This document shows positions 4,220 through 61,452 of a stretch of DNA of 64,000 nucleotides, piece after piece; position 1 is the stretch's first letter; the number at the start of each line of letters is the position of its first letter. The position numbers and the translations under genes are program-made. The notes under the pieces were generated by a model. The model saw only the letters and a list, made by a program, of their open reading frames with translations. It did no database searches and was not told where the DNA came from. Source of the DNA: Leptotrichia wadei (lineage in GTDB: Bacteria > Fusobacteriota > Fusobacteriia > Fusobacteriales > Leptotrichiaceae); contig NZ_AP019841.1 of assembly GCF_007990445.1 (NCBI RefSeq), forward strand, positions 372,001-436,000, written 5' to 3'.

Positions 4220-4442
4220 AAAATAGAAGGTGAATAAAAATGCTTGGGAATGTAAAAAATGAAGCTGGATTTCTATTTAACAAAAAGATAGCAAGAAGTC
4301 GTAGGCTTTCTATAAGTGGGAGATGAATTGCTTTTTTTGTAAAAAAATTGAAAAAAGGGTATATCCATGATACAATTTTTGTATAAAATATCGAAGAGAA
4401 ATAATTAAAAAAATATTCAAAATCAAGAGGAGGTGTAATTTC

Positions 4443-5540: not shown

Positions 5541-5653
5541 GAAAATAAAAAAAACAGGGCAGGGACTGCCCGAAGAGCTTGGTAAATATATTTGGCTAGC
5601 AAAAGCAGATACTTCCCAAGAAGCTCCCGCTTCTAAAAGCGGGAGTAGTTCAC
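5541..5653 (+). ncRNA. Predicted omega (right-end) RNA scaffold of TnpB copy 2
   Basis: In TnpB elements the guide RNA covers the 3' end of tnpB and the right end, with the guide being the flank beyond. Conserved helices are visible: GGGCA/TGCCC (about 5557-5571; copy 3 has GGGCA/TGTCC, a G-U change that keeps the pair), CTTGG/CCAAG, and the terminal CTCCCGCTT/AAGCGGGAG stem. The guide would start at about 5653 in the disrupted ORF. The 5' end probably lies inside tnpB; the boundaries are approximate. Confidence 0.5.
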
Positions 5654-5785
5654 ATGAAACTGAAAAACATATTTTAGTTCCAGGAGATATTTTGCATTTT
5701 GATGGAGTAAATTTTATTAATGGTGCTGCTTTGGAGGATTCTGAAGTTAGTGTTACATTGATAAAAAAATAGGAGCATTAAAAAA

Positions 5786-5829
5786 GGCTGTATTTCATAA
5801 ATTAATTTTATGAGGCAGCCATTTTTTTT
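5786..5829 (+). terminator. Strong terminator after the rho/IS region
   Basis: A long hairpin with outer arms GGCTG (5786-5790) and CAGCC (5816-5820), an inner TTCATAAA/TTTTATGA pairing and a following T run. It separates the plus-strand block from the convergent rnf genes. Confidence 0.85.
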
Positions 5830-5947
5830 ATTTTTATCAAAATTTTTAGTTAAAAGATATTTTTAAATAATTTTCAATATTTATATCAGTTAATCTAAAT
5901 TGCTCGTTTAAAAGGATTGCAATATTTTTAGAAGTAAATACTGGAGT

Positions 5948-15423: not shown

Positions 15424-15450
15424 GTGGAAGGTTATAAAACCAATGACCAC
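15424..15450 (+). promoter_or_regulatory. Likely L1-binding hairpin before rplA
   Basis: GTGG (15424-15427)/CCAC (15447-15450) with an inner GGTT/AACC stem, then AGAGGAGG. It mirrors the motif before rplK. Confidence 0.5.
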
Positions 15451-15467
15451 AGAGGAGGAAATAATAA

Positions 15468-16175
15468 ATGGCAAAAAGAGGAAAAAGATACGATAACATT
15501 TCTCAAAAAGTAGATAAAATGAAAGTTTACACACCAGAAGAAGCATTGGATTTAGTTTTTGAAACTAAAAGTGCAAAATTTGTGGAAACAGTAGAATTAG
15601 CAATTAGATTGGGAGTAGATCCAAGACACGCTGATCAGCAAGTAAGAGGTACAGTTTCATTACCAAACGGAACAGGTAAGACAGTAAGAATCTTGGCTAT
15701 CACAAGTGGAGAAAATATTGATAAGGCATTGGCAGCAGGAGCAGATTTTGCTGGAGATGATGAATATATTAACAAAATCCAAGGTGGATGGCTTGATTTT
15801 GACTTAGTAATTGCTACACCTGACATGATGCCTAAATTAGGAAGATTAGGAAGAATCTTAGGAACTAAAGGACTTATGCCTAACCCTAAATCAGGAACAG
15901 TTACAACAAATATTGAACAAACAGTTCAAGAATTTAAAAAAGGAAAAGTTGCATTTAAAGTTGATAAATTAGGATCAATTCACTTACCAATCGGTAAAGT
16001 TGATTTTACAAAGGAAGCTATCGTAGAAAACTTCAAAGTAGCATTAGATCAAATTATCAAATTAAAACCAGCTACTTCAAAAGGACAATATTTAAGAACA
16101 GTTGCAATCTCATTAACTATGGGACCTGGAATTAAAGTTGATCCATTATTGGCTGGAGCATTTGTTGCTAAATAG
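15468..16175 (+). CDS. rplA: 50S ribosomal protein L1
   Basis: A 235-residue L1 with the signature LGRLGRILGTKGLMPNPKSG near the middle. It forms the L1 stalk and in many bacteria also represses its own operon. Normal length; ATG follows GAGGAGG. A weak hairpin, ATTACCG/CGGTAAT (16200-16230), follows but lacks a clear T run. Confidence 0.97.
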   Translation: MAKRGKRYDNISQKVDKMKVYTPEEALDLVFETKSAKFVETVELAIRLGVDPRHADQQVRGTVSLPNGTGKTVRILAITSGENIDKALAAGADFAGDDEYINKIQGGWLDFDLVIATPDMMPKLGRLGRILGTKGLMPNPKSGTVTTNIEQTVQEFKKGKVAFKVDKLGSIHLPIGKVDFTKEAIVENFKVALDQIIKLKPATSKGQYLRTVAISLTMGPGIKVDPLLAGAFVAK

Positions 16176-16272
16176 TAAATAATCTTATATAATATATAAA
16201 TTACCGGATGGATTTTTTCTGTTCGGTAATTTAAAAAATATAAAAAATTAATAATAAATTTTTAAAATATAC

Positions 16273-16301
16273 TTGCAATTTTGTAAAAGTTATTGTATAA
16301 T
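16273..16301 (+). promoter_or_regulatory. Promoter of rplJ-rplL
   Basis: TTGCAA (16273-16278), a 17-base spacer and TATAAT (16296-16301), about 205 bases before rplJ. Confidence 0.75.
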
Positions 16302-16350
16302 AATACATATTGGTTTATAATCATATAAATCATACAAAGTAAATATAACC

Positions 16351-16489
16351 AAAGACAGTAGGTAGAATTTTGATTCTTTAAACCCTACCGAGGTAAATAT
16401 TATTACAAATAGATATTAAAATTAAATAATAGATATTTTTATAATATGATACCTCTGGGCTTATTGTTTTTGTTTCAGAGGTTTTTATT
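16351..16489 (+). promoter_or_regulatory. L10 leader with attenuator before rplJ
   Basis: The leader contains GACAGTAGGTAG and CCCTACCGAGGT, the conserved arms of ribosomal L10 leaders (GTAGG at 16358-16362 pairs with CCTAC at 16384-16388). Downstream is an intrinsic terminator, ACCTCTG (16451-16457)/CAGAGGT (16476-16482) followed by T5. AGGTA (16391-16395) can pair with TACCT (16450-16454) and would open the terminator. Family knowledge: L10(L12)4 binding favours termination. Confidence 0.8.
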
Positions 16490-16507
16490 ATAAGGAGGTG
16501 AAATGAA

Positions 16508-17014
16508 TTGCCAGCACAAGAAAAATTAGAAGTTGTAAAAAGTCTAGTTGAAAAATTAAAAGATGCTAAAGCGGTAGTATTTGTTGATTATAAAGGGATT
16601 AGTGTTAATGAAGATACTGAACTTCGTAAAAATGCTAGAGAAGCAGGAGTAGAATACTTTGTTGCTAAAAACAGATTGTTTAAAATAGCGTTGAAAGAAG
16701 CAGGATTTGACACAGATGTTGATGATTTATTGGAAGGAACTACATCATTCGCAGTAGGATATGAAGATGGAGTTGCACCATCTAAATTAGTTTTTGATTT
16801 TGGGAAAAAATTAAAAGATAAATTAACAATTAAAGGTGGATTGCTAGAAACTGGAAGAGTTGAAGTATCTACTGTTGAAGCATTGGCTAAATTACCATCT
16901 AGAGATGAATTACTTGGTCAAATTGCTTACGGATTGTTGTCGCCAGTTAGAATGTTGGCTGTGGCATTGACAAATGTTGCAGAACAAAAGGAAACTGGAG
17001 CAGCAGCTGAATAA
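16508..17014 (+). CDS. rplJ: 50S ribosomal protein L10
   Basis: A 168-residue L10 (AQEKLEVVKSLVEKLKDAKA, VVFVDYKGIS). It anchors L7/L12 dimers to the ribosome through its C-terminal helix. The start is TTG at 16508, 7 bases after AAGGAGGTG. An ATG at 16503 is in another frame and gives only an eight-codon peptide, so it is not the start. Poor start codon and attenuator both suggest tight control. Confidence 0.95.
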   Translation: MPAQEKLEVVKSLVEKLKDAKAVVFVDYKGISVNEDTELRKNAREAGVEYFVAKNRLFKIALKEAGFDTDVDDLLEGTTSFAVGYEDGVAPSKLVFDFGKKLKDKLTIKGGLLETGRVEVSTVEALAKLPSRDELLGQIAYGLLSPVRMLAVALTNVAEQKETGAAAE

Positions 17015-17090
17015 TTGAATGAAAATATTAATAAACTAAAATAATAAAAAATAAACAAATTAAAGAAGAAAATTAGGAGGAAATAAAATA

Positions 17091-17459
17091 ATGGCATTTA
17101 ATAAAGAACAATTTATAGAAGATTTAAAAGCTATGTCTGTATTAGAATTAAAAGAAGTAGTTGAAGCTATTGAAGAAACATTTGGAGTATCAGCTCAACC
17201 AGTAGCAGTTGCAGGAGGAGCAGCAGCAGGAGCAGCAGCTGAAGAAAAAACTGAATTTGATGTAGTATTAGTATCTGCAGGAGGAACTAAATTAGCAGTA
17301 ATTAAAGAAGTAAGAGGAATTACTGGATTAGGACTTAAAGAAGCTAAAGAATTAGTTGAAGCTGGCGGAAAAGCAGTTAAAGAAGGAGTTTCTAAAGAAG
17401 AAGCTGAAGAAATTAAAGGTAAATTAGAAGCTGCAGGAGCAACTGTAGAAGTTAAATAG
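17091..17459 (+). CDS. rplL: 50S ribosomal protein L7/L12
   Basis: A 122-residue L12: N-terminal dimer helices, an Ala/Gly-rich hinge ([13 protein letters not shown], about 42-54) and the factor-binding domain with [22 protein letters not shown] follows GGAGG. It is the last gene before a clear terminator. Confidence 0.97.
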
Positions 17460-17480
17460 TCAAAATCAAATTAATAGTTA

Positions 17481-17515
17481 AGACACTCTTAGACATTACA
17501 GAGAGTGTCTTTTTC
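17481..17515 (+). terminator. Terminator after rplL
   Basis: AGACACTCT (17481-17489) and AGAGTGTCT (17502-17510), then TTTTT. It separates rplJL from rpoBC. Confidence 0.85.
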
Positions 17516-18035
17516 CACTATAAAACTTTAAGGTTGAATAGACAATTTATTCTTTTTTGTATTAATTTTTAGAGATAAAAATAGGTCAAAACAAATTCAT
17601 ATATGTAATATGGCAAAGCTGCTTGTAAAAGAATATGGACATTGAAAAAAATAGATTGTTTTTTAGGTAAATTTGATTATTTTTAAATAGTTAAATTGGA
17701 AAAAGTAGTTTTGGTATAATAACTTTAAGACTAAATATAGAGGTTCAAATGTTTAAAACAGAAGTATTTTTAGTCTATTTTTTAGTTTTTTATAATATAA
17801 TTGATGTAATTTTATAGGTAAAAAAGTTATATTGTATTAGATTTATTTGGAATGCAGAATTTTGCAGTTTCCAGAAGGTTGCCATTTTTATGGGAACAAC
17901 TCACGTGATATAAAATAACAAATCGAAATTATGAGAACATTTTTAGATGAGGTTTAAATTTAGAAGTTTATAAAAGTTTAATTTTTGATTTGAATTGATG
18001 AAGAATGTGTTCTTTATTAGGGAGGAATTTTTTAA
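17516..18035 (+). promoter_or_regulatory. rpoB upstream region with extended -10 promoter and leader
   Basis: No gene. TGGTATAAT (17712-17720) is an extended -10 element without a good -35. The leader of about 310 bases contains a small hairpin, GTTGCC/GGGAACAAC (about 17879-17907). This gives rpoBC its own promoter apart from rplJL. Confidence 0.5.
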
Positions 18036-21000
18036 ATGAACAAACTTATTGAAAGATATAGTTTCGGAAAAATAGTAGATAGAGGGGAAATGCCGCACTT
18101 TTTAGAATTTCAGTTAAATTCTTATGAAGATTTTTTGCAGACGAAAGTGCCACCTCAAAAGAGAGAAAATAAAGGTTTTGAAGCGATCTTTAATGAAATT
18201 TTTCCAATTGAATCCAGCAATGGGTTATTGAAATTAGAATACTTATGGTATGAAATTCATGATAATGATGAGCCTTTAAATGATGAATTGGAATGTAAAA
18301 AAAGAGGTAAAACGTATTCTGGTCAATTAAAAGTTAGATTGAAATTAACTAACAAGAGAACAGGAGAAATTCAGGAAACATTAGTTCATTTTGGAGATAT
18401 ACCGCTTATGACTGATAAAGCAACGTTTATTGTAAATGGTGCAGAAAGAGTTGTTATTTCCCAATTACACAGATCACCAGGGATCACTTTTAACAAGGAA
18501 TTGAATATTCAAACAGGAAAAGATGTGTTTATCGGGAAAATTATCCCTTATAAAGGAACATGGCTTGAATTTGAAACTGACAAGAATGATATTTTAAATG
18601 TAAAAATTGATAGAAGAAAGAAAGTTTTATTGCCTGTTTTCCTTAAAGCAGTTGATTTTTTCCATACTAACGAAGAAATTATGAATAATTTTTTTGAGCT
18701 AAAGGAAGTGGAATTATCAGAACTTTATTCAAAATATAAAGATACTGAACTTGAAGAAGTTTTACGTTCAAAACTGGAGGGAAGTTTTGTAAGAGAAGAT
18801 ATTTTGGATGAAGAAACTGGGGAATTTGTCGCTGAAGCCGAAGAAATCATCGACATACCTGTTATTCAAAAAATAATAGATGCAAAGGTAGAAAAATTAA
18901 GTATTTGGGAAGTAAAACCTGAAGATAGAATAATTGCAAATGCTTTGGTACATGATAGCACTAAAAATAGTGATGAAGCGGTTATCGAAGTGTTTAGAAA
19001 ATTACGTCCAGGGGATTTAGTAACTGTTGACAGTGCCAGATCGCTTGTTAAGCAGATGTTCTTTAATCCACAAAGATATGATTTGGCAGATGTTGGAAGA
19101 TATAAAGTTAATAAAAGATTAAAGTTGGATGTTCCAGCAGATGTAATTGTATTGACAAAGGAAGATGTTTTGCAAACTATTGAATATGTGAAAAATCTTG
19201 TAAGCGGAGAAGGATTTACAGATGACATTGATAATTTGTCAAATAGACGTGTAAGAGGTGTTGGAGAATTGCTTTCTATCCAAATAAAAGGTGGAATGCT
19301 GAAAATGTCTAAAATGGTCAGAGAAAAAATGACAATTCAAGATATTACAACATTGACTCCACAAAGTTTGTTAAATACAAAACCTCTAAATGCACTAATT
19401 CTTGAGTTTTTTGGAAGTGGACAATTGTCACAATTTATGGATCAGTCAAATCCGTTATCTGAATTGACTCATAAGAGAAGAATTTCAGCGTTAGGACCTG
19501 GAGGACTTTCGAGAGATAGAGCGGGATTTGAAGTTCGGGACGTTCATAATTCGCATTATGGAAGAATCTGTCCAATAGAAACTCCAGAAGGACCGAATAT
19601 CGGACTTATCGCTTCACTTTCAACTTATGGAAAAGTTAATAAATATGGATTTATTGAAACTCCGTTTGTAAAAATAAACGATGGAAAAGCCGATTTTAAT
19701 GATATTAGATATTTAGCAGCTGATGAAGAAGAAGGATTATTTATCGCTCAAGCAGATACGCCAATTGACAAGGATGGAAATTTCTTGACTGATGAAGTTG
19801 TTTGCCGTTATGGGGATGAAATTGTGCATATTGACAAGTCAAAAGTTGATATTCTAGACGTGTCGCCAAAACAATTAGTGTCTGTTTCAGCGGGATTAAT
19901 ACCATTTTTGGAACACGATGATGCCAATCGTGCGTTAATGGGATCAAATATGCAACGTCAAGCAGTACCTTTATTAAAAACAGAAGCACCTTATGTTGGA
20001 ACTGGACTTGAAAGAAAAGTTGCCGTGGATTCAGGGGCAGTTATTACTTCAAAGGCAGCTGGAACTGTAACTTTTGTAGATGCAAGAAAGATTGTTGTAA
20101 CTGATGAAGATGGAAAAGAATATTCTCATAGATTACTAAACTTTGAAAAATCTAACCAGTCAATGTGTTTACATCAAAAACCGATTATTGATTTGGGAGA
20201 TAAAGTTCAAAAGGGAGATATTATTGCAGATGGACCATCTACTGCAGGCGGGGATTTAGCATTAGGTAAAAATATCCTGCTAGCATTTATGCCTTGGGAA
20301 GGATATAATTTTGAAGATGGAATCCTTATTTCAGAAAGACTTAGAAAAGATGATGTATTTACTTCAATTCATATTGAAGAATTTGACATTGAAGCGAGAA
20401 CTACAAAATTAGGTGATGAGGAAATTACAAGGGAAATTCCTAATGTTTCTGAAGAAGCCTTGAGAAACCTTGATGAAAATGGAATTATAAGAATCGGAGC
20501 ACACGTAACTCCTGATGATATTCTTGTCGGAAAAGTAACTCCTAAAGGGGAAACTGAGCCGCCAGCAGAAGAAAAACTATTACGTGCAATCTTTGGGGAA
20601 AAGGCAAAAGATGTAAGAGATACTTCATTAAGACTTCCTCATGGAGTAAAAGGGACTGTTGTAGATGTGCTTGAGCTGTCTAAAGAAAACGGAGATGACT
20701 TGAAGGCTGGAGTAAATAAATTAATTAGAATTTACATTGCTGAAAAAAGAAAAATAATGGTTGGGGATAAAATGTCTGGACGTCATGGAAATAAAGGGGT
20801 AATTTCAAGAGTATTGCCAATTGAAGATATGCCACACTTGGAAGACGGTACACCAATTGATGTTTGTCTTAACCCACTTGGAGTGCCATCTCGTATGAAT
20901 ATTGGACAGGTGCTGGAAGTTCACTTGGGACTTGCAATTGGAGATATTGATAAATATATCGCAACACCAGTATTTGATGGTGCAAGTGAAGACGATGTAA

Positions 21001-37418: not shown

Positions 37419-37868
37419 ATGAATTATTATGAAGTGCTAGGTGTATCTGAAAATGCTGATATTTCAGAAATAAAGAAAAAATATAGGAAATTGGCGATGA
37501 AATATCATCCAGACAGGAATTCGGGGGATGAAAATGCTACTAAAAAATTTCGGGAGGTAACTGAGGCTTATGAGGTTCTTGGGGATGAAAAGAAAAGGGA
37601 AGAGTATGACTATAAAAGAAAAAATGTTCAGAGTCAAAGAAGAAATAAGAATAGAAAGGAAAATGTCAAGGATGAATTTTCTCAAAATGACTTTACTTTT
37701 GGAAGGGATTTTTTTAAAAGTGCTAAGGAAATGAGAGGGATGTTTGAAAATAGTTTTAGGATGGATAAAAAGGGAGAGAAAAGGGCAAGGTCTGAAAAAG
37801 AGAATATTAAAAGTAGATTTGATCAGTTTTTTGATGTAAAGAAAAAAAATAATGATAATTTGGGGTAA
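37419..37868 (+). CDS. J-domain protein (type III, J domain plus charged tail)
   Basis: Residues 1-66 form a canonical J domain: [20 protein letters not shown], the HPD triad at H30-P31-D32, and [15 protein letters not shown] domains stimulate ATP hydrolysis by Hsp70. The other 83 residues are charged, with no Gly/Phe region, zinc fingers or substrate-binding domain, so this is not DnaJ proper. It heads a same-strand island that includes an Hsp70-like protein (44705), its probable partner. ATG follows AAGGAAG. Confidence 0.88.
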
Positions 37869-38016
37869 CTTTATAAATTTTTATAAGAAATTTTGAGTTT
37901 AATATTATTAAAAATTATATAAATTTATGTTTTAAGTAAAATAGTCATAGTTTTTGAGTTCAGTTTTAAGGCAGTTTTACTATAAAAAAGATAAATTGAG
38001 GGAAGGAAAAAAGGAA

Positions 38017-38835
38017 ATGTTATGGGGAATTAGAAGATTTTTGTCAAATTTTAGAAGTATTTTTAGACGGCCGTTTGGACGAGGCAGTATTTATCGGCTG
38101 GAAAGGCTTAGAAGTATTGCACGAATGAGGGAAAGTGGAAAAAGTAGAAGTGAAAGAAGCAGTTTGGGAGTTGACAGAGGGATTAAAAAATATGAAAAAC
38201 GAAAGTTAAATGCTAGAAATCAGAAAAGTTATAAATTTTTTAATGTGAAAAATATTTTAATAATGATGGTTTTGATATTTACGTTTATTTTTGTACATTT
38301 TTCAGGATATTCTGCAAAAAGTCTTTATTTTTCGATTTTTATTTATATTGGAGTTACACTTTATTTGCTTATTGTGGAAAGATTTTTTGAAAAGGTGGAA
38401 GTTCAAGAGGAAATTAGGAATATAAAAAATGACAGGGAAAGGGAACATAATGTTTTTTTGGAAAAAGTGAAGGAAATAGAGGATTTGGAGAAAAGTCAGA
38501 TTGAGCATATATTTTTGAAGGATTCTGAAGATTATGATATGAAAATTTGGAAAGTTGGAAGAGCGACTTCTCTTTTGATTGGAAAACAGACACCTAGAAA
38601 TAGGGTTGATATTGATGTAAGTGATGGAATTTATTCTAATTTAGTTAGCAGGGCTCATGGAATTTTAAATCGAGTCAATGGGATTTGGTATTATGAGGAT
38701 TTGGGTTCGCAAAATGGGAGCGGAATTGAAAGAAATCTGGATAAGCGGAAAATAAAATTAAAAAAAAATATACCTGTAAAAGTGGAGTCAGGCGATATAA
38801 TTTACTTGGCAACTACAAAAATATTATTAAAATAA
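38017..38835 (+). CDS. Membrane-anchored FHA-domain protein
   Basis: 272 residues from ATG 38017 (preceded by GAGGGAAGG and AAGGA); the frame is open to a TTG at 37954. A basic N-terminal region of about 70 residues is followed by two membrane helices (NILIMMVLIFTFIFVHF and YFSIFIYIGVTLYLLIV), a charged linker, and a C-terminal FHA domain. FHA signatures: KVGRATSLLIGK, SNLVSRAHGIL (the SRxH motif) and DLGSQNGSGIE. FHA domains bind phosphothreonine peptides; the domain would face the cytoplasm. The likely phosphate donor is the kinase at 43589. Confidence 0.8.
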   Translation: MLWGIRRFLSNFRSIFRRPFGRGSIYRLERLRSIARMRESGKSRSERSSLGVDRGIKKYEKRKLNARNQKSYKFFNVKNILIMMVLIFTFIFVHFSGYSAKSLYFSIFIYIGVTLYLLIVERFFEKVEVQEEIRNIKNDREREHNVFLEKVKEIEDLEKSQIEHIFLKDSEDYDMKIWKVGRATSLLIGKQTPRNRVDIDVSDGIYSNLVSRAHGILNRVNGIWYYEDLGSQNGSGIERNLDKRKIKLKKNIPVKVESGDIIYLATTKILLK

Positions 38836-38984
38836 AAAAAGGCAATAATAAAAGTGGAAATTTCAAAAAGCCAGGGATTAAAATTTTTATTAGAGAGTAA
38901 GAATAAAATTTATGTTTTTTCATGAAGTTTAGCATTGCAGGTTTTCATAAATAGATAAGATAAAAAATGGAGGATTATTTTAAA

Positions 38985-39641
38985 ATGAAATTAGATAGAT
39001 GTAAAAATGGGCATATATACGATGTTTCCAGATATAGTTCGTGTCCCTACTGTAAATCGGAAGGATTGGAAACAGAAGTTCAAGATGATAAAATTAATTT
39101 AGTTGAACAAATGGAAGATGAGGATAGAACTACTGCCTACTGGTCAAAGGACAGCACGGTGGATCCTGTTGTGGGATGGCTTACGTGTATTGAAGGGCAT
39201 GATAAGGGGAAGGATTATAGAATTGTGAGTGAACGGAACTTTATTGGACGTGGGGAAAATATGGACATCCAGATTTCAGGGGATACTATGATTTCAAGGA
39301 AAAATCATTGTTCGATAAGTTATAATCCGAAGCAGCGGAAATTTATGCTAACTCCTGGAGATTCCAATGGATTGATTTATTTAAATGGAGAAGCTGTTTA
39401 TAATACGGTGGAATTGAGGGCTTATTCGGTTGTGGAAATGGGGGAGAGCAAATTTGTATTTGTAAATTTGTGTGGAGATTATTTTGATTGGGAGAAGGAA
39501 AAAGCCAGGGATGAAAATTTGAGAAAAAGATATGAAAATTTGGCTGATGAAAAAACAGCTGGAAATATGAATTTTGTGAATAGAAATAGTAAAAATGGGG
39601 ATTTGGAAGTAAAAATTGAAGATTATGAAGAAAATTTATAA
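38985..39641 (+). CDS. Zinc-ribbon plus FHA-domain protein
   Basis: A soluble protein of 218 residues. N-terminal metal site CKNGHIYDVSRYSSCPYC (C6, H10, C20, C23). FHA domain in the middle: NFIGRGENMDIQI, SRKNHCSISYNP and YLNGEAV. The C-terminal 50 residues are charged. In clostridia, as I recall, zinc-ribbon FHA proteins of this kind sit next to PP2C phosphatases and kinases, as here. ATG at 38985 lies 11 bases after GGAGG; an ATG at 38967 has no ribosome site. Confidence 0.8.
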   Translation: MKLDRCKNGHIYDVSRYSSCPYCKSEGLETEVQDDKINLVEQMEDEDRTTAYWSKDSTVDPVVGWLTCIEGHDKGKDYRIVSERNFIGRGENMDIQISGDTMISRKNHCSISYNPKQRKFMLTPGDSNGLIYLNGEAVYNTVELRAYSVVEMGESKFVFVNLCGDYFDWEKEKARDENLRKRYENLADEKTAGNMNFVNRNSKNGDLEVKIEDYEENL

Positions 39642-39671: not shown

Positions 39672-42074
39672 ATGAGGAAGGATGAGGCAAAATTTATTAC
39701 GGAATTTTTGAGCGAGGCTGGAACGAAGGCTGAAAATAGTGATTATTTTGGATATATTTTGCTGGATAATTATGCGATTTGGGCTGCAGCTGATGGATTT
39801 GATGAGGAAGATGGGGCAAAAGTTGCGGCAAGGATTGCTGTAGAATCTGTAATTGAATATTTTATGCTACGTCCACGATTTAATTATGACGTTATTAAGG
39901 AAATGATGGATTATGCCAATTTGAAGGTTAAGGAAAAACAGGAAGAAGCTAAAAAATATTCTCTTATGCACACTTCTCTTTTAATCGTTATAAGCAATTA
40001 TAATTCAATTTTATATGGAAATGTTGGAAATACTAGATTTTATCATATTAGAGGCGGATATATTGTTTCTCAAAGTAAAGATGATACGATAGCGCAGCTT
40101 TTGGTGGATGAAGAAGCGTTAAATGTATCGGATATGAAATTTCATAGGCAGAGAAATGATTTACTGCAGGCAATTGGGGATTTTGGAAAAATTAAGCCGA
40201 ATATTATAAAAAGCCCTGTAGAGCTTATGGAAAAAGATATTTTTTGCTTGACAACCGTGGGATTTTGGGAAAATATTGATGAACATGATATGGAAAATGA
40301 TTTGTCTAGATTTGAGGATAAAAAGCAATGGCTGAATTCATTGGAAAAGAGAATACTCGCTTCGCTTAGGGACAATATTGAAAATTATACGATTGCACAG
40401 GTGGAAGTGCAGGCGGTGGCAAGTCCAGAGCCGATGGAAAAGGATAGAAGCAAATTGATAAAAAAAATAATTTTGATAATAATGATTGTTGTTGTGATTA
40501 TTTTATTTATTGTAATTTGGAATGTGAAAAGGCGAAATGGGATTTTACAGGCGGCGACACAGTATGAAAAGCTGGCGGATGAGGAAATTTTGAAAAAGAA
40601 TTTTAATAATTCGATTGATAATTTAAAATTGGAAATTGGGGAATATGAGAAATTAAAGCCAAAAAGCAGAGGTGTGATTGGATTTTTTACAAATGCAGAG
40701 AAAAAAAGGAACGATGCGAATAAAAAGATTGATGAAATAAATAAAAAAATTGGAGAAACTGAAAAGATTAAGGAGGCATTTTCAGATATTAATGAAGGAA
40801 ATGATCTGTTTAACAATGGAAATTATGATGAGGCAAATGAGAAGTATCAGCAGGCTAAATATAATCTGAATGACAATACTTATAAACGTGATGAGTTGAA
40901 TACAGAAGAAATTTTAGCAACATTGGATTCACGGATTAATTCGGGTGTGAACCTGAAGGAGGCGAAGGCTTTGGAAATGGCTGGGGATAATGCGGTTAAT
41001 GAAGGAAGTTACAATTTGGCGAAAGTCAGTTACAAAAATGCGGCAGATATGTATTTGGCAAATGGAAAGGCGGATTATGTTTCACAAATTGAGAAAAAGA
41101 TAGAGGAAATAGCGGACAAGGAAAAAACGGCATATAATGGGGCAATGCTTGCAGAAAATAAAGGGGATTCATTGGCACAGAGCAACATTAATTCTTCTAG
41201 GGAGGCATATTATCAGGCACGGCAGATGTACCAGATACTTGGAGATACTGTGAAAGTGGGAGAGATTGACAATAAGATACAGGAGCTTAATTCTCAGCAG
41301 AATGCTGATTTACAAACTGCTAATAATCTTGTTCAAGAGGGGCTTTCGCAAATTACGGCTAATAATCCAGCACAGGCAATAGGAATTTTGACACAGGCTA
41401 AAAATATTTATCAAAAAATGAAAGATGCAAATAATGTAAATGCTGTTGGAAAATATATAAGCCAGGCACAGGAATTTATTAAATTTGAAAGCCAGAATGC
41501 TGAAAAACTGAAGGAAAAGGAACTGGAATATTCGGAAAAATTAAAATCTCAAGAAACAGAATATTCAGAAAGGCTAAGACAGCAGGAGATTCAGCTGCAG
41601 CAGCAATTACAGGCAAGAGAAGCAGAAATAAAGGCACAGCAGGAACAAATGGAGATAGAAAGGCAAAAGCGGGAAGAAATATCAAGAAAAATGGAAAATG
41701 CCTTAAATCTGGAAATGCAGGCGGATCAGCTGGAATTAGATGAAAAATTTGAGGAAAGTATTTCAAAATACGAGGAAACGAAGAAAATTTTGGAAGAAGT
41801 AAATACTGATGGTAATTTTGGAAATCAAGTGGCTAAGATTGAAGGTTTAAATAAAAAAATTGAAAAAAGTGAAGGATATTTGCTGAAGAAAAAGGGAGAA
41901 GAGGATCTTAAAAATAAAAAATGGAAGGATGCTATGGAAAAGCTTACGCAGGCAAAGGAAAAACTGGAAAAAGTTGGAATAAAGCAAGATGAACTGGAAA
42001 AAATAGGGAAAGAACTGAAAAGGGCTGTGAAAAAAGCAAATAAGAAATGGTGGCAGTTCTGGAAGATTTTTTAG
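39672..42074 (+). CDS. PP2C-fold membrane protein with helical repeats and coiled coil
   Basis: Residues 1-250 follow the PP2C order: WAAADGFDEEDG (ADG at 40-42), YGNVGNTRFYHI (matching GDSR), LLQAIGDFG, and FCLTTVGFWENI where active enzymes have a metal-binding SDG (here TVG, 195-197). ENYT replaces the usual DN-T. So one metal Asp is kept and others are lost; activity is uncertain. A single membrane helix (about 262-285) follows. Then about 500 residues of TPR-like helical repeats (FNNGNYDEANEKYQQAK type) and a Gln/Glu-rich coiled coil (about 600-690), ending with KKWWQFWKIF. If the N-terminus is cytoplasmic, the repeats are outside, or the helix is peripheral. Confidence 0.75.
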   Translation: MRKDEAKFITEFLSEAGTKAENSDYFGYILLDNYAIWAAADGFDEEDGAKVAARIAVESVIEYFMLRPRFNYDVIKEMMDYANLKVKEKQEEAKKYSLMHTSLLIVISNYNSILYGNVGNTRFYHIRGGYIVSQSKDDTIAQLLVDEEALNVSDMKFHRQRNDLLQAIGDFGKIKPNIIKSPVELMEKDIFCLTTVGFWENIDEHDMENDLSRFEDKKQWLNSLEKRILASLRDNIENYTIAQVEVQAVASPEPMEKDRSKLIKKIILIIMIVVVIILFIVIWNVKRRNGILQAATQYEKLADEEILKKNFNNSIDNLKLEIGEYEKLKPKSRGVIGFFTNAEKKRNDANKKIDEINKKIGETEKIKEAFSDINEGNDLFNNGNYDEANEKYQQAKYNLNDNTYKRDELNTEEILATLDSRINSGVNLKEAKALEMAGDNAVNEGSYNLAKVSYKNAADMYLANGKADYVSQIEKKIEEIADKEKTAYNGAMLAENKGDSLAQSNINSSREAYYQARQMYQILGDTVKVGEIDNKIQELNSQQNADLQTANNLVQEGLSQITANNPAQAIGILTQAKNIYQKMKDANNVNAVGKYISQAQEFIKFESQNAEKLKEKELEYSEKLKSQETEYSERLRQQEIQLQQQLQAREAEIKAQQEQMEIERQKREEISRKMENALNLEMQADQLELDEKFEESISKYEETKKILEEVNTDGNFGNQVAKIEGLNKKIEKSEGYLLKKKGEEDLKNKKWKDAMEKLTQAKEKLEKVGIKQDELEKIGKELKRAVKKANKKWWQFWKIF

Positions 42075-42173
42075 GCGAAAGCTAAGATTAAAAATCGAAT
42101 AACAATAGCATTAATTAAAAAATTATGACAGTTCACTATTTAAATGGAAAATGATACAGGATAGGAGGGGAAA

Positions 42174-43574
42174 ATGGTAAAAAGCATAAAATTAAAAACT
42201 TTCTTTTTTAAGGAATATGCACAAATTGCTGAAAAAAATACGTATTCGGCATATATTCCGAATGGGAACAGGGGAATCTGGTGCATTGCTAATTTTGAGG
42301 AAAAAATTCAGAGACGAGAAAATGTGGAAATTGAGGGAAAAATAGGAAGTAGCGGTATTGAGAGTAAAAAAAATAAAAAGAATGTAAAAAGGAAGAATTT
42401 GGCAAAGGCTGGAGTTCATAAAGTTATTGAAAAATATTTGGAAAATGGTGGTTTTTCAACGGAAAATATGAAAAAAATTATTCAATCTTCTAAAGATAAA
42501 GTAATTTTTGAGAAAAGTAAGTTTTTTAAAGTTGAAAAAAATAATGAAAAAGATTTTGATTCTAAAAATTTTTATTCGCAAATTGTTGTTATTATTGACA
42601 AAGATGACATGATTGCGGGAAATATGGGGAAAACGGAGCTTGCTTTGTATCGGGAAAATAGGATTGTGGATAAAATATGTGGAGAGGAAATTAAGAGAGT
42701 AAAGTTACGAAAAAATGATTATTTGCTGGCTGGAAGTCCTGAATTTTGGAAAAATGTTGATGAGAATGAGATTGAGGAAGTTTTTGTTGATTTGAAAAGT
42801 AAGGAGAATATTGAGAAAAATTTAAGCAGGAAAATAAAGGCTGCTGAAGTGAAATTAAAAAAAGTCATACCATTTTTGTCGATTTTTGTGGAAAATGTTG
42901 AAATGGAAGATAGTGATGAAGAATTGGAAAGGGAAGTTGACAGAGAAAATAAGAAAAGGGAAATAGCTGTAAAGCATACGTTTTTAATGATAATATTTTT
43001 ATTTTTGTTTATTTCCGTGGGGAAAAATATTCAAAGGGGGAATCTGAAAATTAGGAAGGAAAAAAATTTGGAAAGTGTGGTAGCTGGAAAAATTGGGGAA
43101 AAGGCGAAATTGATGGAAAATAATTTGATTGAAAAAATGGAAATTGAAAAAAATAAAATAATGAGAAAAGATAAAATTGGGCTGGAAAATGTTGAGAGTG
43201 CTGAGGAAAAAGATGGAGATGAAGGAGAGAAAAAAGCAGGAGATGGAATTAAAAGTGTGGAGGGGAAAAATAAAAATGCGGGAAATTTAGAAGTAGTTCA
43301 AAATATTGAAGAAAATGATGGAAAAAGAAAAATTAAAAAAAATAAAGTAAGCAAAGTGAAAATGGGTAAGAAGGAAAAAAGTCAGAAAAGATGGGAAAAA
43401 GTTGCTGGAAATGAAAAAAATCAAAATAAAAAAAATTTTAACGTAAATAATAAAAGTTTTAAAAAAGATCAAAATTTAAAAAATAACAAACTTTCACAAC
43501 TTGATAAGGAAATTGAGAGGAACTGGAAAATTTTGGGGCGTGATAGGAATGGAAATAATTTGAAGAAAGTATAA
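42174..43574 (+). CDS. Degenerate PP2C-like membrane protein (paralogue of the previous gene)
   Basis: The first 250 residues align by motif order with the upstream PP2C: NRGIWCIANFEE stands where the other has WAAADGFDE, MIAGNMGKTELALYRE where it has YGNVGNTRFYHI, and YLLAGSPEFWKNVDENEIE where it has FCLTTVGFWENIDEHDME. The metal-binding Asp residues are gone, so it should be a pseudo-phosphatase. One membrane helix follows (HTFLMIIFLFLFISVG, about 264-279), then a very Lys/Glu/Asn-rich tail of about 185 residues. ATG after AGGAGGGG. Nothing like it is known to me by name. Confidence 0.65.
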   Translation: MVKSIKLKTFFFKEYAQIAEKNTYSAYIPNGNRGIWCIANFEEKIQRRENVEIEGKIGSSGIESKKNKKNVKRKNLAKAGVHKVIEKYLENGGFSTENMKKIIQSSKDKVIFEKSKFFKVEKNNEKDFDSKNFYSQIVVIIDKDDMIAGNMGKTELALYRENRIVDKICGEEIKRVKLRKNDYLLAGSPEFWKNVDENEIEEVFVDLKSKENIEKNLSRKIKAAEVKLKKVIPFLSIFVENVEMEDSDEELEREVDRENKKREIAVKHTFLMIIFLFLFISVGKNIQRGNLKIRKEKNLESVVAGKIGEKAKLMENNLIEKMEIEKNKIMRKDKIGLENVESAEEKDGDEGEKKAGDGIKSVEGKNKNAGNLEVVQNIEENDGKRKIKKNKVSKVKMGKKEKSQKRWEKVAGNEKNQNKKNFNVNNKSFKKDQNLKNNKLSQLDKEIERNWKILGRDRNGNNLKKV

Positions 43575-43588
43575 AAGGGAAAAGTGAG

Positions 43589-44503
43589 ATGGATTTTTTA
43601 TTAAAGAGAACGATGTTGAATGGGAAATATAAGATTGTGAGTTATATGGCTAAGAGTGATTTTTCTAATATTTATTTGGCTGAAAATAATTTAGGGGAAA
43701 AAGTTGTTATTAAGGAGTGTTATCCTGAAAAAATTGTTATGAGAGATGGGAAGGAAGTTTTTACGGAAAAATATAGGAAAGATTTTGAGAGATTAAAGAG
43801 ATGTTTTTGGAAGGAAAAATGTATTTTGGAGAAATTTAGAAAGAAGTCTAAGGGAAATAGGGGAAAATTTCAAAATAATCTTATTAAAAATGGTGTTATT
43901 AAAATTCTGGATTTTTTTAGTGAAAATGGAACAAATTATATTGTTATGGAATATTTTGGGATTACTTTGAAAGAGTATATTTTGGAAAATAAGGTTCAAG
44001 ATGAAAAAATAAATATAAATTATATTTTGAAAATATTTCTTAAAGTTGCAAGGGCTGTTTGTAAAATCCATAAAAAGGGGATTATTCATTGTGATTTAAA
44101 GCCATCAAATATTTTGGTTGATATTAGGGGGAATATTAGAATTATTGACTTTGGATCAAGTTTGAGAAAAGGGGAAAAGGTTGATTTTATTGAGGTTTCA
44201 GAAGGGTATTCGCCGATTGAAGTTTATTCAGAAAAGGTTCAGATTGATGAAAGAGCTGATGTTTATTCGCTTTCGGCACTTTTGTATTTTATGCTTTGTG
44301 GGAAGAAAATTAGTGGGGCAGTTAAGAGGTTTTATAAGCCAGAATTGGAATTTGCAAGAGAAGTGATTTTAGGGTTTGAGAAAATTGGGAAGTTTAAGGA
44401 AGTGGAAAAAATAATAAAAAAAGGATTGGAATTTGAAAGGAAAAAAAGATTTGGAAGTGTCAGGGAAATGATTGAAAAGTTAGAATTATTAAATTCTATT
44501 TAG
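43589..44503 (+). CDS. Serine/threonine protein kinase, soluble
   Basis: A Hanks-type kinase of 304 residues, almost only the catalytic domain. VVIKECYP supplies the ATP-binding Lys42, E76 is the probable helix-C Glu, and the catalytic loop is HCDLKPSNIL (D169, K171, N174). DFG is at 187-189, and GYSPIEVY fills the APE region. HCD in place of HRD means it is a non-RD kinase, so activation may not need loop phosphorylation. There is no membrane helix or PASTA domain, unlike PknB-type wall sensors. It follows the pseudo-phosphatase by 14 bases. Confidence 0.9.
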   Translation: MDFLLKRTMLNGKYKIVSYMAKSDFSNIYLAENNLGEKVVIKECYPEKIVMRDGKEVFTEKYRKDFERLKRCFWKEKCILEKFRKKSKGNRGKFQNNLIKNGVIKILDFFSENGTNYIVMEYFGITLKEYILENKVQDEKININYILKIFLKVARAVCKIHKKGIIHCDLKPSNILVDIRGNIRIIDFGSSLRKGEKVDFIEVSEGYSPIEVYSEKVQIDERADVYSLSALLYFMLCGKKISGAVKRFYKPELEFAREVILGFEKIGKFKEVEKIIKKGLEFERKKRFGSVREMIEKLELLNSI

Positions 44504-44704: not shown

Positions 44705-47335
44705 ATGAAATTGTTTTATGAGGAAGAATTGCGGAGAAAATCCTATTATGAGATGTATCAGATTGCGATTGAGGAAAAGCTGGTGGATGTGCATTTAGAA
44801 ACGCCTACGAGAGAGGAGCTTATTACACTTTTGATGAAATATCGGGGAGTGAAGGCTAATTATTGTATTGACAAGTATAAAAAAAATGGGCTTGTAAATG
44901 TTCAGCTGCTTTTTGACAGTAAACTTGGGGAGAGGATTCATCATGAGAATAAAATACGAGTACCGCACAAAATTATTTTGTATAAGGAGCTTGATTTGAT
45001 GAGGGAGGACAATTATAAGATTGAGATTCCTGAAAATGTGAGCAGTGCAAATGTCTTTCTTATAAATGCAAATAATTATCTTTGTGGAATTTTTCAGCTG
45101 GAAAAGGATTTGAAGAGCAGGAATAAATATTTTTTGATTAGTAAAAAAGAATTTTTTAGAGTTGAGATATTGAGAAATAATAAGTTTTCGTTTTTATTTT
45201 TTAAAGAAAATGACTTAAAATTTATTCATGAATTTTATAATTGGAAGGAAGATGAGCCATATCCGCTTTATCCGTATCAGATGGATTATTATAAAGTTGA
45301 AATTGAAAATTTTGTTGTAAAAAATCTGGAAACTACGAATACTCCGCTTTGTATTGATTTTGGGACTGTAAATACAGCTCTGGGAGCATATCTGGATAGA
45401 AATTATGTGAAGGATTTGCCGACTAATGATATTTTGAATGGGAATATTGTCATTGATGCGATAAACTATGCGAAATTTGATGATGGGGAAAGGCATTACC
45501 GTGAGATTTTTCCAACATTGGTTTATGTTGAAGATTGTAGCGATAGTAATAATATTAAGTATTCGTTTGGATATGATGTGGTAAGAAAATTGGAAAAAAA
45601 TGATTATATTGTTAATGGATCGATTTTTTATAGTTTGAAAAGGTGGGTGCATGAGCATAATAAGATGGAAAAAATTAATGATGAGTTTGGGAATATTTTG
45701 TATGTAAAAAGAAAGGAAATAATAAAGGCTTATTTGAAATATGTTGTAAATCGTGCAGAATATATGTTTAAATGTAAATTTAAAAAAATTCATGCTTCCA
45801 GCCCTGTAAAATTGAAAGAGCAGTTTTTGACAATGTTTCAGGAAATTTTTATGGTTGAAAATAATTTTAATAAAAGTTCTTATGAAAAAAATTATGAATA
45901 TGAAATTATTCGTGAAAATGCTATGGATGAAGCTATTGCTGTGCTTTATAATACGATTGAGATACAGATAAGGAAGGGGAGATATAAGGAAAATGAAGAA
46001 TATAGTGCTTTAATTATTGATTGTGGTGGTGGAACTACTGATTTGGCAGCTTGTAAATATGTGATTAATAAGGACAGGATTTCATATTATCTGGATATAA
46101 GGACAAGTTTTGAAAATGGAGATGAAAATTTTGGGGGAAATGACTTGACTTATAGGATTATGCAGTTTTTGAAGATTGTGCTGGGAGCAAAGTATTCTGA
46201 GAATAGGACTGTTTCTGTTAATGATTTGATAAAATATGATAATGATATGATTTATAAAGTGATTGATGACAGCGGTGTTGATAAAATTTTTGAAAATATG
46301 AATTTGGAATATGAAAAATATGAGAAAATAATACCGACAAAATATTCACAATTTGAAAATAAAATGAGCGAAGAATATCAAAAAATACGAAATAATTTTT
46401 ATATGCTTTGGGAAGCTGCTGAAAATTTAAAAAAAGAATTTTTTACATCTGATGGAAGACTGCGGACACGTTTTGATGCGCCTAGAAATTATGAAAAAAG
46501 GAATGACATTCATATAACGCAGTTAAAAAGCTGGAAAATTCACACTTATGAAAATGAAATATTTAACACAGTAACAGATTATCCAAGACATATTTTTACA
46601 ATAAAGGAAATAGAAAAAATTGTAAAAGCCGATATTTACGGAATGCTTAGAAAATTTTTGAACACTTATTACAAGGAAGGGCTGCTTTTTGAGTATTCGT
46701 TGATAAAGTTGAGCGGACAATCGACTAAAATTAGTACATTTCAGGAAGTTCTGAAGGAATTTGTGCCTGGAAAAATGATAGAATACAAGGAACTTAGCCA
46801 TCGTGATGATTATGAGCTGAAGTTGAACTGTCTGGATGGTGCTATAAAATATTTGGATTATAAGCGGTTTGGGCATATAGATGTGGAAATTGTGAATGAA
46901 GTGCCGCTTGTGCCGTATTCTGTGTGGGTGGAAAAATACGATGGGAAAAAAGTTGAAATGATACAGACTTCACGAAAGGCTGATATCTTGGTTGGGCAAA
47001 TTGACAAAAAAAGTTCAGCTGAAGAACTCAAAATTTATGTCTATAATGCTGAAGGGGAACTCAAAAAAGAGATGATTTATAAAAATGAAGATGACTATGA
47101 GGAAATGGATGCACAGGAAATCTTGCCAGAATTTGTAAATATTATTTCTCAAAATGATACTGATACAATTCAAAATGATACAGTTAGATTTTTCGTTTAC
47201 ACTGATTTAAATAACTGGGGATTTTTTGTCGTGCCAATCCAAAGAAAGTCAGATCAGCTTTATCTTGGACGTAAGCAATATTTTCCTTATGAAGATAATT
47301 TAAGTGAAAATTCCTATTTTGATGGAAATCACTAA
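44705..47335 (+). CDS. Hsp70/actin-fold ATPase with a 210-residue N-terminal extension
   Basis: Hsp70-type nucleotide-binding motifs are in order: phosphate 1 LCIDFGTVNTALGAY (about 214-228), phosphate 2 ALIIDCGGGTTDLAAC (about 435-450) with FGGNDLTYRIM after it, and the adenosine-region motif LIKLSGQSTKIS (about 660). The first about 210 residues are a separate domain I do not recognise; no DnaK-type beta substrate domain or helical lid is evident, and the end (about 730-876) is a different beta-rich tail. So it is not DnaK. With a J-domain protein in the same island, a dedicated chaperone or switch pair is likely. ATG at 44705 after GGGGAA. Confidence 0.8.
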   Translation: MKLFYEEELRRKSYYEMYQIAIEEKLVDVHLETPTREELITLLMKYRGVKANYCIDKYKKNGLVNVQLLFDSKLGERIHHENKIRVPHKIILYKELDLMREDNYKIEIPENVSSANVFLINANNYLCGIFQLEKDLKSRNKYFLISKKEFFRVEILRNNKFSFLFFKENDLKFIHEFYNWKEDEPYPLYPYQMDYYKVEIENFVVKNLETTNTPLCIDFGTVNTALGAYLDRNYVKDLPTNDILNGNIVIDAINYAKFDDGERHYREIFPTLVYVEDCSDSNNIKYSFGYDVVRKLEKNDYIVNGSIFYSLKRWVHEHNKMEKINDEFGNILYVKRKEIIKAYLKYVVNRAEYMFKCKFKKIHASSPVKLKEQFLTMFQEIFMVENNFNKSSYEKNYEYEIIRENAMDEAIAVLYNTIEIQIRKGRYKENEEYSALIIDCGGGTTDLAACKYVINKDRISYYLDIRTSFENGDENFGGNDLTYRIMQFLKIVLGAKYSENRTVSVNDLIKYDNDMIYKVIDDSGVDKIFENMNLEYEKYEKIIPTKYSQFENKMSEEYQKIRNNFYMLWEAAENLKKEFFTSDGRLRTRFDAPRNYEKRNDIHITQLKSWKIHTYENEIFNTVTDYPRHIFTIKEIEKIVKADIYGMLRKFLNTYYKEGLLFEYSLIKLSGQSTKISTFQEVLKEFVPGKMIEYKELSHRDDYELKLNCLDGAIKYLDYKRFGHIDVEIVNEVPLVPYSVWVEKYDGKKVEMIQTSRKADILVGQIDKKSSAEELKIYVYNAEGELKKEMIYKNEDDYEEMDAQEILPEFVNIISQNDTDTIQNDTVRFFVYTDLNNWGFFVVPIQRKSDQLYLGRKQYFPYEDNLSENSYFDGNH

Positions 47336-47350
47336 AAAAGGGGAAAAATA

Positions 47351-48607
47351 TTGAAAAAAAAAGATGAACTAATTTGGTTAATGCCGACGATTTTTATTTT
47401 TATTATCCTTTTTATGATAAAATTTTGTACACCTAAAATTAATAGAAAATATATTATTAGTAAAATAAAACGTGAAAATCTTGAACTTTTTGTAGATATG
47501 AAAGGAACTGTTGTTGCAAATAATGTTACTAAAATTGGATTAGATGTAAATTTATCAGTTGATAATGTTTATTTTAAAGCTGGAGATTTTGTGAAAAAGG
47601 GCGATATAATAGTAAAATTTAGCGACTATCAGAAAAGTGATATTAGTGAAAAAAGAGCATTGCTAGTCGTAAAAAATGCACAGTTGAGGAACCTTGAAAA
47701 ACAGCAGGAATTAGGGGCGGATGTGAATCAGAAAATTCAAGAAGTAAAAGGGGAAATAGATGGATTGGAGCTGGAAGTAAAAGATGAAATGAAAAATGCT
47801 GTGTTAGTTCAGAGAACTGTGAGAAGTCCGTTTGATGGATATATTGTAAAAATTAATGCTGTAAAAGGTGGAATTGTAAATAAAAATGAGCCTATAGTTG
47901 TTTTGGCGAAAAAGAATGATCTGAAAATAGTAAGTGAAAGTATGACAGATGAAAAAATTAAAAATTTGGGTATTGGAAATATGGCTGAAGTAAGCCTTTT
48001 TAGGAGAAAAAATAAAAAAGCTGGGGAAGAGAAAACGCTTGAGGAATTAGTTGAAATTAAAAATGATAAAGGCAAAGAAGGTTTTCAAAATAGAGATAAT
48101 AAAGGGAATTTAGATTTATTTTCTGAAAGAAAAGTTATTGAAGCGGAATTATTTAAGATTAATAAAGTTGTAAATATGAATGTGCTTGAGTTTTTGCCGA
48201 TTTCCTTTAAGGATTTATTTTTAAATGAGCAGGTGGATATTCGTGTTATTTATAGAAAGAAAGAGAATGTTTTAACTGTTTCTAAAAAAGCGATTATTTT
48301 TAAAAATCAGAAAAGTTATATTTATTTGATTGATAAAAATAATTTGGTTAGGGAAAGGGAAGTTTTTGTTGGGGTGGATAATGGAGAAAAGATTGAGATT
48401 TTTGGGATGAATATTGAGGAAGGGATGGAAATTGTGGAAAATCCTGATGATAAAATTACAAATAATGTAATTGTGGAAAGAAGAAATATTCAAGATGAAG
48501 AAATTGAAAAGAAAAAAAGAATAGAAAAATTAGAGAATGAAAATGAAAAAATAGGAAATAAAATGGATGAAAATGAGAGGGAGATTATTAGATTGAAGCA
48601 AAAATAA
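47351..48607 (+). CDS. Membrane-fusion (HlyD/RND adaptor)-like protein
   Basis: Starts with TTG after GGGGAA, 15 bases after the Hsp70-like gene. One N-terminal membrane helix (LIWLMPTIFIFIILFMIKF), then a biotinyl-lipoyl-like half motif (VYFKAGDFVKKGDIIVKF), a helical hairpin (about 95-150), the second half motif (RSPFDGYIVKINAVKGGIV) and beta-barrel parts (VLTVSKKAIIF). The tail is a Lys/Glu coiled coil. Adaptor proteins of this fold link inner-membrane transporters to outer-membrane channels, but neither an ABC/RND pump nor a TolC is nearby, so the role is open. Confidence 0.75.
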   Translation: MKKKDELIWLMPTIFIFIILFMIKFCTPKINRKYIISKIKRENLELFVDMKGTVVANNVTKIGLDVNLSVDNVYFKAGDFVKKGDIIVKFSDYQKSDISEKRALLVVKNAQLRNLEKQQELGADVNQKIQEVKGEIDGLELEVKDEMKNAVLVQRTVRSPFDGYIVKINAVKGGIVNKNEPIVVLAKKNDLKIVSESMTDEKIKNLGIGNMAEVSLFRRKNKKAGEEKTLEELVEIKNDKGKEGFQNRDNKGNLDLFSERKVIEAELFKINKVVNMNVLEFLPISFKDLFLNEQVDIRVIYRKKENVLTVSKKAIIFKNQKSYIYLIDKNNLVREREVFVGVDNGEKIEIFGMNIEEGMEIVENPDDKITNNVIVERRNIQDEEIEKKKRIEKLENENEKIGNKMDENEREIIRLKQK

Positions 48608-60556: not shown

Positions 60557-61452
60557 AAAAAGATAGCAAGAAGTCTCCGACTTCTACAAGTGGGAGATGA
60601 ATTGCTTTTTTTGTAAAAAAAATTGAAAAAAGTCAAATTAAAATATCATAGAGAAATACCGAAGGATTACAAGATAAAGTCAGTAACATTGACAAACAGT
60701 AATGGAAATTACTATGTTTCTGTCTTGACGGAATTTGAAAAAGAAATTCAAAAAATGCCAAGTTATGATAAAGTAATTGGACTTGATTTTTCAATGTCTG
60801 AATTATTTGTCAGTTCTGAAAACCAAAGGGCTGATTATCTAAGATATTTTAGGATGTTAGAAGAAAAATTAAAGAAATTACAGAAATCATTATCAAGGAA
60901 AGTAAAATTTTCTAAAAATTGGTATAAGCAAAAAGCGAAAATATCAAAATTACATGAGTATATTAAAAATTGTCGAAGAGATTTTTTGCATAAATTATCG
61001 AAAAAATTGTCTGAAGAATACAATGCTGTGGTTGTTGAGAATTTGAATATGAAAGGGATGAGCCAGGCATTAAATTTTGGGAAAAGTATAGGAGATAATG
61101 GATGGGGAATGTTTTTGAGAATGCTTGAGTATAAGTTAATGTTTTTAGGGAAACAATTTTTGAAGATAGATAAGTGGTTTCCGTCATCGAAAACTTGCAG
61201 TAAATGCGGAAATATTAAAGAGGAACTGAAATTATCAGAAAGAAGTTATAAATGTGAGTGCTGTGGAATTGAAATTGATAGAGATTACAATGCGGCACTG
61301 AATATAAAAAACATTGGGAAATTGATGTTGGAATATTAGAAAAATAAAAAAAACAGGGCAGGGACTGTCCGAAGAGCTTGGTAAATATATTTGGCTAACA
61401 AAAGCAGATACTTCCCAAGAAGCTCCCGCTTCTAAAAGCGGGAGTAGTTCAC
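60557..61452 (+). mobile_element. IS200/IS605-type element, copy 3, internally deleted
   Basis: Begins right after TTTAAC (60551-60556), like copy 2, with a clean left-end hairpin GAAGT-CTCCG-ACTTC (60571-60585). Ends GTAGTTCAC at 61452 with the CTCCCGCTT/AAGCGGGAG stem. Relative to copy 2, about 476 bases are missing between AAAATTGAAAA in the left end (4344-4354) and the same 11 bases in tnpB (4820-4830). Both ends are intact, so it could still be moved in trans. It lies about 120 bases upstream of the autotransporter gene. Confidence 0.85.
60623..61339 (+). pseudogene. tnpB: TnpB lacking its N-terminal ~130 residues
   Basis: Open from a TTG at 60623. It keeps the sequence from KLKYHREIPKDYK onward and all RuvC acids (IGLDFS, VVVENLNMKG, DRDYNAALNI) and the zinc cysteines. 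The N-terminal region that binds RNA and the target-adjacent motif is gone and no ribosome site precedes the TTG. Most likely non-functional, though translation from an internal start cannot be excluded. Confidence 0.8.

Follow-up and report, generated by a model that had tools for sequence, protein, structure and literature searches.

Two adjacent PP2C-fold proteins with degenerate metal sites in a kinase–FHA gene cluster of Leptotrichia wadei

The window, that is, the whole stretch of 64,000 nucleotides of Leptotrichia wadei DNA analysed here, carries two adjacent genes in which an earlier note had seen a common order of PP2C phosphatase motifs, each followed by a membrane helix. The second gene had been read as a dead copy next to its parent. 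The locus raises the question of whether the second protein has a PP2C fold at all, whether its neighbour is still an enzyme, and what such a pair may be doing immediately upstream of a protein kinase. The first gene is referred to here as PP2C-TPR, and the features of the locus are as follows.

37419..37868, + strand: J-domain protein (PF00226, 5.4e-29)
37954..38835, + strand: protein whose C-terminal part is an FHA domain (PF00498, 7e-7); hydrophobic segments by eye
38967..39641, + strand: FHA-domain protein (PF00498, 1.9e-8)
39672..42074, + strand: PP2C-TPR, ORF of 800 aa; degenerate PP2C domain at about aa 1-250, one membrane helix at about aa 263-285 (by eye), followed by roughly 500 aa with TPR-like and coiled-coil character
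42163..42170, + strand: Shine-Dalgarno-like AGGAGGGG before the second gene (read by eye)
42174..43574, + strand: second gene, a putative pseudophosphatase, ORF of 466 aa
42174-42902, + strand: PP2C-like domain of the second protein (hhalign to PP2C-TPR, AlphaFold2 model)
about 42969-43034, + strand: membrane helix of the second protein (helix 246-289 in the AlphaFold2 model), with a linker after it
43479-43571, + strand: conserved tail of the second protein (conserved residues among homologues)
43589..44503, + strand: soluble-looking Hanks-type Ser/Thr kinase, 304 aa (PF00069, 4.3e-28)
44705..47335, + strand: conserved protein of 876 aa with actin/Hsp70-like phosphate motifs by eye only, syntenic in the clusters
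47351..48607, + strand: HlyD-like protein adjoining the cluster in Leptotrichiaceae loci (PF13437, 2.7e-7; synteny)

An Hsp70 identity of the 876 aa protein was not confirmed; no convincing Hsp70 match was obtained. Further downstream, an ORF at 60623-61339 resembles, by eye only, a TnpB-type transposon protein.

Both ORFs lie where they had been described. PP2C-TPR matches the Pfam family PF13672 (PP2C_2) at 1.4e-7 and the NCBIfam Stp1 model at 8.6e-27, yet under that model's cut-off, and its profile finds PP2Cs among the PDB sequences at 9.1e-17 (tPphA). For the second protein, a Pfam search gave no match and no PDB sequence matched its profile significantly; the case for its fold is therefore made by profile-to-profile alignment and by a structural model. 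A profile of 16 homologues of the second protein aligns with one of 12 homologues of PP2C-TPR with an hhalign probability of 99.3 (E 1.1e-20) over 286 columns; about 40 residues are missing between the GKT and SPE motifs of the second protein, and the alignment runs through the membrane helix, in keeping with the shared layout noticed earlier. Against 8 intact PP2Cs from outside the phylum the E value is 4.7e-8, and a control comparison with the alignment of the neighbouring kinase gave a probability of 0.1. Judged from these profiles, the homology of the second protein to PP2C-TPR is far above chance.

The AlphaFold2 model of residues 1-290 of the second protein has a pLDDT of 76.1 and a pTM of 0.70. 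Its alignment consisted of 16 rows, 3 of the second-protein kind and 13 PP2Cs, and as the PP2C rows help the model, it is partly dependent on the hhalign result (the motif alignment and the model took 12 of the 13 loci from the relatives search, L135 being left out). Foldseek finds tPphA (2y09) at 6.6e-8 among 108 chains with E values no higher than 0.001; VIA-align superposes it on 2pk0 with a Z score of 18.9 (rmsd 2.9, 196 residues) and on the type VI secretion system (T6SS) phosphatase PppA (6jkv) with a Z score of 17.1. The model and these comparisons rule out a different fold, and the PP2C fold proposed for the second protein is borne out. Both proteins belong to the PP2C/PPM fold family, the second by its model and PP2C-TPR by its profile match to tPphA. 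In the homologue from genome G007 the conserved tail matches as a separate piece past the end of the ORF, and therefore seems to be out of frame there.

Of the five metal-centre aspartates (at NED, ADG, GDS, SDG and DN), PP2C-TPR has two and the second protein of the window none. The reference aspartates of tPphA, as counted from the alignment, are 18, 34, 119 and 193; the metal bound by each, and a fifth aspartate at the DN motif, follow the general picture of PP2Cs. In PP2C-TPR, ADG is intact and SDG has become TVG, as had been noted, and two further losses were found, with GNTR in place of GDSR and ENYT in place of the last DNxT. The second protein has ANF for ADG, KNT for NED, GKT for GDS and SPE for SDG, and its last motif is without Asp, also in another alignment that moves it by one column; the earlier description of this protein is confirmed.

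Comparable losses occur in the relatives. In all 20 aligned rows of PP2C-TPR, which come from several families, the aspartates of NxD and ADG are present and those of GDS (N in all), SDG (V, I, M, H or Q) and DN (E, P, N or S) are lost, with the surroundings of the lost SDG aspartate preserved (TVGFWENID in the window versus CSDGFWENIE). None of the 16 homologues of the second protein has intact sites: the aspartate survives at the ADG site in six (G002, G005, G007, G008, G009 and G011), nowhere with its glycine, and at the GDS site in one (G010b), and those of NED, SDG and DN are present in none. Other PP2Cs have the SDG and DN aspartates (6/6). The residue table omits the PP2C-TPR of the extra G001 copy (G001b, with stops), two 236 aa ORFs of L075 and L076, L135 (uncertain start) and L136 (a near copy of L130), and takes 8 of the 10 intact outside loci; a second G009 copy of PP2C-TPR and homologues of G037, G051, G053, G072, G073, G081 and G086 were found but are not in the alignment, and the G061 homologue was read outside it. 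As read from these alignments, neither protein has the full set of Asp ligands required of a catalytically competent PPM phosphatase. The pseudoenzyme status of both proteins is well supported, and PP2C-TPR is probably inactive as well.

The closest relatives found outside Fusobacteriota are the intact PP2Cs with the motif CSDGFWEN[IV] (L127-L134, from Firmicutes and Betaproteobacteria MAGs). Most of them, like the pair in the window, adjoin FHA and kinase genes, one being shown with a vWA; in contrast to the pair, they keep all five metal aspartates (8/8), and they have no PP2C-TPR tail. In the Blautia locus L133 (460-5478), an FHA-FtsK/SpoIIIE protein lies near the intact CSDGFWEN PP2C, FHA and kinases; this protein suggests that a type VII-like, not contractile, system is under kinase-FHA-PP2C control there.

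A tree built from 50 PP2C domains places the second proteins in a single group (100/100); this group joins the rows of PP2C-TPR (99/98), and the intact relatives fall outside both. The inner order of the tree is unsure because of long branches (2.42 for the second-protein group, which neighbours pp_G034). Since the same three aspartates are lost in every PP2C-TPR row and the joint branch is well supported, their loss most likely preceded the duplication, and the notion of a living parent beside its dead copy is not supported. At loci without the second gene (G027, G041, G034, G061 and six small genomes), PP2C-TPR lies directly before the kinase, which fits a tandem duplication between the two. 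The second gene is present in 13 of 60 genomes, its own included. Pairwise Nei-Gojobori estimates (own script, 7 pairs) give dN/dS values for its PP2C-like domain of 0.13, 0.15, 0.25, 0.26, 0.33, 0.35 and 0.64, the last at a dS of 0.045; the domain is under purifying selection (0.13-0.35 in 6/7 pairs). The whole PP2C-TPR gene has values of 0.06-0.10 (6 pairs).

Kinase, PP2C-fold and FHA genes occur together in one cluster. The order dnaJ, FHA-TM, FHA, PP2C-TPR, second gene, kinase, 876 aa protein, HlyD-like protein is common to 10 carriers of the same genus and mostly kept in G026, G022 and G019; some loci have missing or inserted pieces, and the HlyD-like gene is split in G003. The second gene stands directly before the kinase in 16/16 loci and directly after PP2C-TPR in 14/16; where inserts have come between it and PP2C-TPR, in the additional copies of G005 and G001, it remains beside the kinase. 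A second, divergent cluster copy was seen in G010, G005 and G001, and by matches only in G009 (L072, L074-L076). The PP2C-TPR of the G001 copy is broken by stops, and the 236 aa ORFs of L075 and L076, one of which BLAST had placed near PP2C, are not PP2Cs on reading. In small-genome relatives (L140-L145) the kinases are truncated to 156-229 aa with HND..N and D[FY] kept, and look as if en route to pseudokinases. One contig assigned to an archaeal MAG (Ca. Methanovirga; L126, JAITPS010000059.1) carries a whole Fusobacteriota-type cluster with 47-75% identity to G041 proteins, and this assignment is likely a binning error. Scans of viral contigs with queries A1, A2 and A3 gave no relatives for any of them.

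In relatives, the clusters adjoin genes for 721 aa and 145 aa proteins, VgrG-like proteins and DUF4280 proteins, the last sometimes fused to HINT and nuclease domains. DUF4280 is described as PAAR-like in PMC5014421. The 721 aa and 145 aa genes are well conserved (50-86%, with the exception of one 27% tube-like paralogue), and are called putative sheath and putative tube from size, order and conservation only; neither protein has a significant match among solved structures (best hint Hcp1, 6bdc, E 0.81), and a single-sequence model of the putative tube has a pLDDT of 35. The genome of the window has a homologue of the sheath-like gene at C1:753120, about 340 kb from the module, DUF4280 at C1:750551 and C1:1257146 (both over the cut-off), and a VgrG-like gene at C1:1053866 (PF05954 over the cut-off, TIGR03361 at 1.8e-9, below it). 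By these domain matches, a VgrG-type spike and a PAAR-type tip are present in it.

Among 96 genomes of the order, the 721 aa gene and PP2C-TPR occur together in 23, PP2C-TPR alone in 1 (G086), the 721 aa gene alone in 10, and neither in 62; the Fisher value of 2e-13 is uncorrected for kinship and overstates the association, since related genomes are counted. Six of the genomes with the 721 aa gene alone were opened (G014, G015, G018, G023, G024 and G025; G016, G028, G031 and G084 were not), and each of the six encodes, next to that gene, FHA and FHA-TM proteins, a divergent protein resembling PP2C-TPR and a short kinase. We infer, on good grounds, a link of the module to a T6SS-like apparatus. 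The second gene is absent from several genera with apparatus-like genes, and is therefore not essential to the system in general. In the reading of the earlier note, the PP2C fold, the lack of intact metal residues in relatives and a probably inactive PP2C-TPR are supported, and the living parent is not; the wider cluster with its link to the apparatus had been missed.

In L074, DUF4280 is fused to pretoxin-HINT at 4181-5890 and 15433-18348, one of the two with a nuclease domain, near VgrG-like genes; these proteins are probably effectors against other bacteria. In the genome of the window, a 1311 aa protein (L090:13427-17362) with DUF4280 in the middle and CHAP at its end adjoins the 721 aa gene, and is possibly a spike tip with a wall-cutting end.

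A known T6SS circuit offers one comparison. According to PMC6082577, PpkA phosphorylates Fha, whereupon assembly starts, and the active phosphatase PppA takes the phosphate off again, which allows the machine to move; PpkA is described, in PMC12607579, as an inner-membrane kinase that gathers components. The cluster shares with this pathway a kinase, PP2C-fold and FHA proteins tied, here by our inference, to a contractile apparatus, and PppA itself is among the structural matches. It differs in that the kinase looks soluble, with no hydrophobic helix seen by eye in its 304 aa, and the PP2C-fold proteins are membrane-bound and without metal sites. As for an active PppA-type phosphatase, a search with the intact PP2C of G026 found none in the window's genome or in 8 of the 9 other same-genus genomes.

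We put at about even chances the reading that both proteins are PP2C pseudophosphatases tethered to the membrane, where they dock kinase and FHA proteins to a contractile, T6SS-like injection apparatus of the Fusobacteriota. Both would sit in a Ser/Thr phospho-signalling module, and neither would dephosphorylate. The second protein, whose gene always adjoins that of the kinase, would hold the soluble kinase at the inner membrane, PP2C-TPR would hold phosphorylated or FHA-bound partners there, and the two proteins would in this way place and license assembly of the apparatus. The membrane anchor would then be a pseudophosphatase, in contrast to the kinase PpkA of the T6SS threonine phosphorylation pathway. 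The proposed tethering builds on the soluble look of the kinase, the helices of the PP2C-fold proteins and the precedent of PHLPP2 and TAB1.

TAB1 activates the kinase TAK1. PMC12002173 describes PHLPP2 as a one-metal PPM pseudophosphatase, for which a scaffold role at membranes is proposed, and has TAB1, by name a TAK1-binding protein, retaining one site. The likeness to these proteins lies in a kept PP2C fold with the M1 and M3 residues lost, as found here, and, for PP2C-TPR, in the one site left. The differences are that TAB1 and PHLPP2 are eukaryotic, whereas here a bacterial tandem pair is clustered with a Hanks kinase and FHA proteins, and that the second protein lacks nearly every site.

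A plainer reading, unlikely but deserving weight, is that both PP2C-fold proteins are structural inner-membrane parts, an anchor or baseplate dock, for which phosphorylation no longer matters. The PP2C-like domain of small-genome relatives has degenerated completely and their kinase is down to 156-229 aa, while the order sheath-like, tube-like, FHA, FHA, PP2C-like, kinase is still kept, and a full glycine loop is present in 0/27 Fusobacteriota-type kinases of the motif table, that of the window included. However, the window's kinase, the sole PF00069 match in its genome, retains the lysine, HCD and DFG, the kinase gene has a dN/dS of 0.16-0.23 over 6 pairs, and the FHA domains score above the Pfam cut-offs.

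It is improbable that PP2C-TPR instead uses the metal site left to it to bind a phosphorylated substrate and shield that substrate from turnover. The constancy of the NxD and ADG aspartates would suit such a role, as would the one site likewise retained by TAB1 and PHLPP2 (PMC12002173), but an Arg beside the phosphate site of the intact rows is Lys in the PP2C-TPR of the window, and no intact PP2C to protect against was found in the genus. A third, intact PP2C lies inside the cluster in G026, where it is at L069:6588-7439, and in G027 and G034; with the G026 protein as query, nothing was found in 9 of 10 same-genus genomes, that of the window included, and G001 gave a weak match with a stop. 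In the window's genome (G000), PF07228 has no match and PF13672 matches PP2C-TPR and one 381 aa frame at C1:1937692 (E 0.13, below the cut-off). Beside its single Hanks-type kinase, this genome thus yielded no intact PP2C to the G026 protein or to the profiles PF13672 and PF07228.

We consider it very improbable that only the second protein is dead and that PP2C-TPR has kept a weak or unusual phosphatase activity: the ADG and NxD motifs of PP2C-TPR and its strong overall PP2C similarity are set against the loss of three of five metal aspartates in 20/20 rows, and PMC12002173 ascribes the inactivity of PHLPP2 and TAB1 to metal-site loss. That the second gene is a functionless, decaying duplicate is scarcely credible, for its fast divergence (branch 2.42), linker dN/dS of 0.37-0.58 in 7/7 pairs and apparently out-of-frame tail in G007 are outweighed by its retention in 13 genomes at 16 loci and the purifying selection on its PP2C-like domain.

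The reading of both proteins as pseudophosphatases that dock a kinase and FHA proteins may fit a wider history, which we put forward tentatively and rather doubt: that in Fusobacteriota the kinase-phosphatase-FHA switch of a contractile injection apparatus is changing from a circuit of enzymes to a scaffold. PP2C-TPR would be dead throughout, the true phosphatase lost in Leptotrichia, the dead copy duplicated for the kinase, and the kinase shrunk in small-genome relatives. If so, docking would act as the switch of the machine, and phosphorylation would be one-way or absent. The literature on PP2C pseudophosphatases is mostly eukaryotic, and in open-licence full texts nothing was found on such a Fusobacteriota apparatus, nor on pseudophosphatases in a T6SS. 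With intact relatives beyond the phylum and stepwise losses within it, this conserved pair of bacterial proteins would offer a natural series from phosphatase to scaffold; the finding also directs attention to an injection apparatus, and to how it is controlled, in oral Fusobacteriota.
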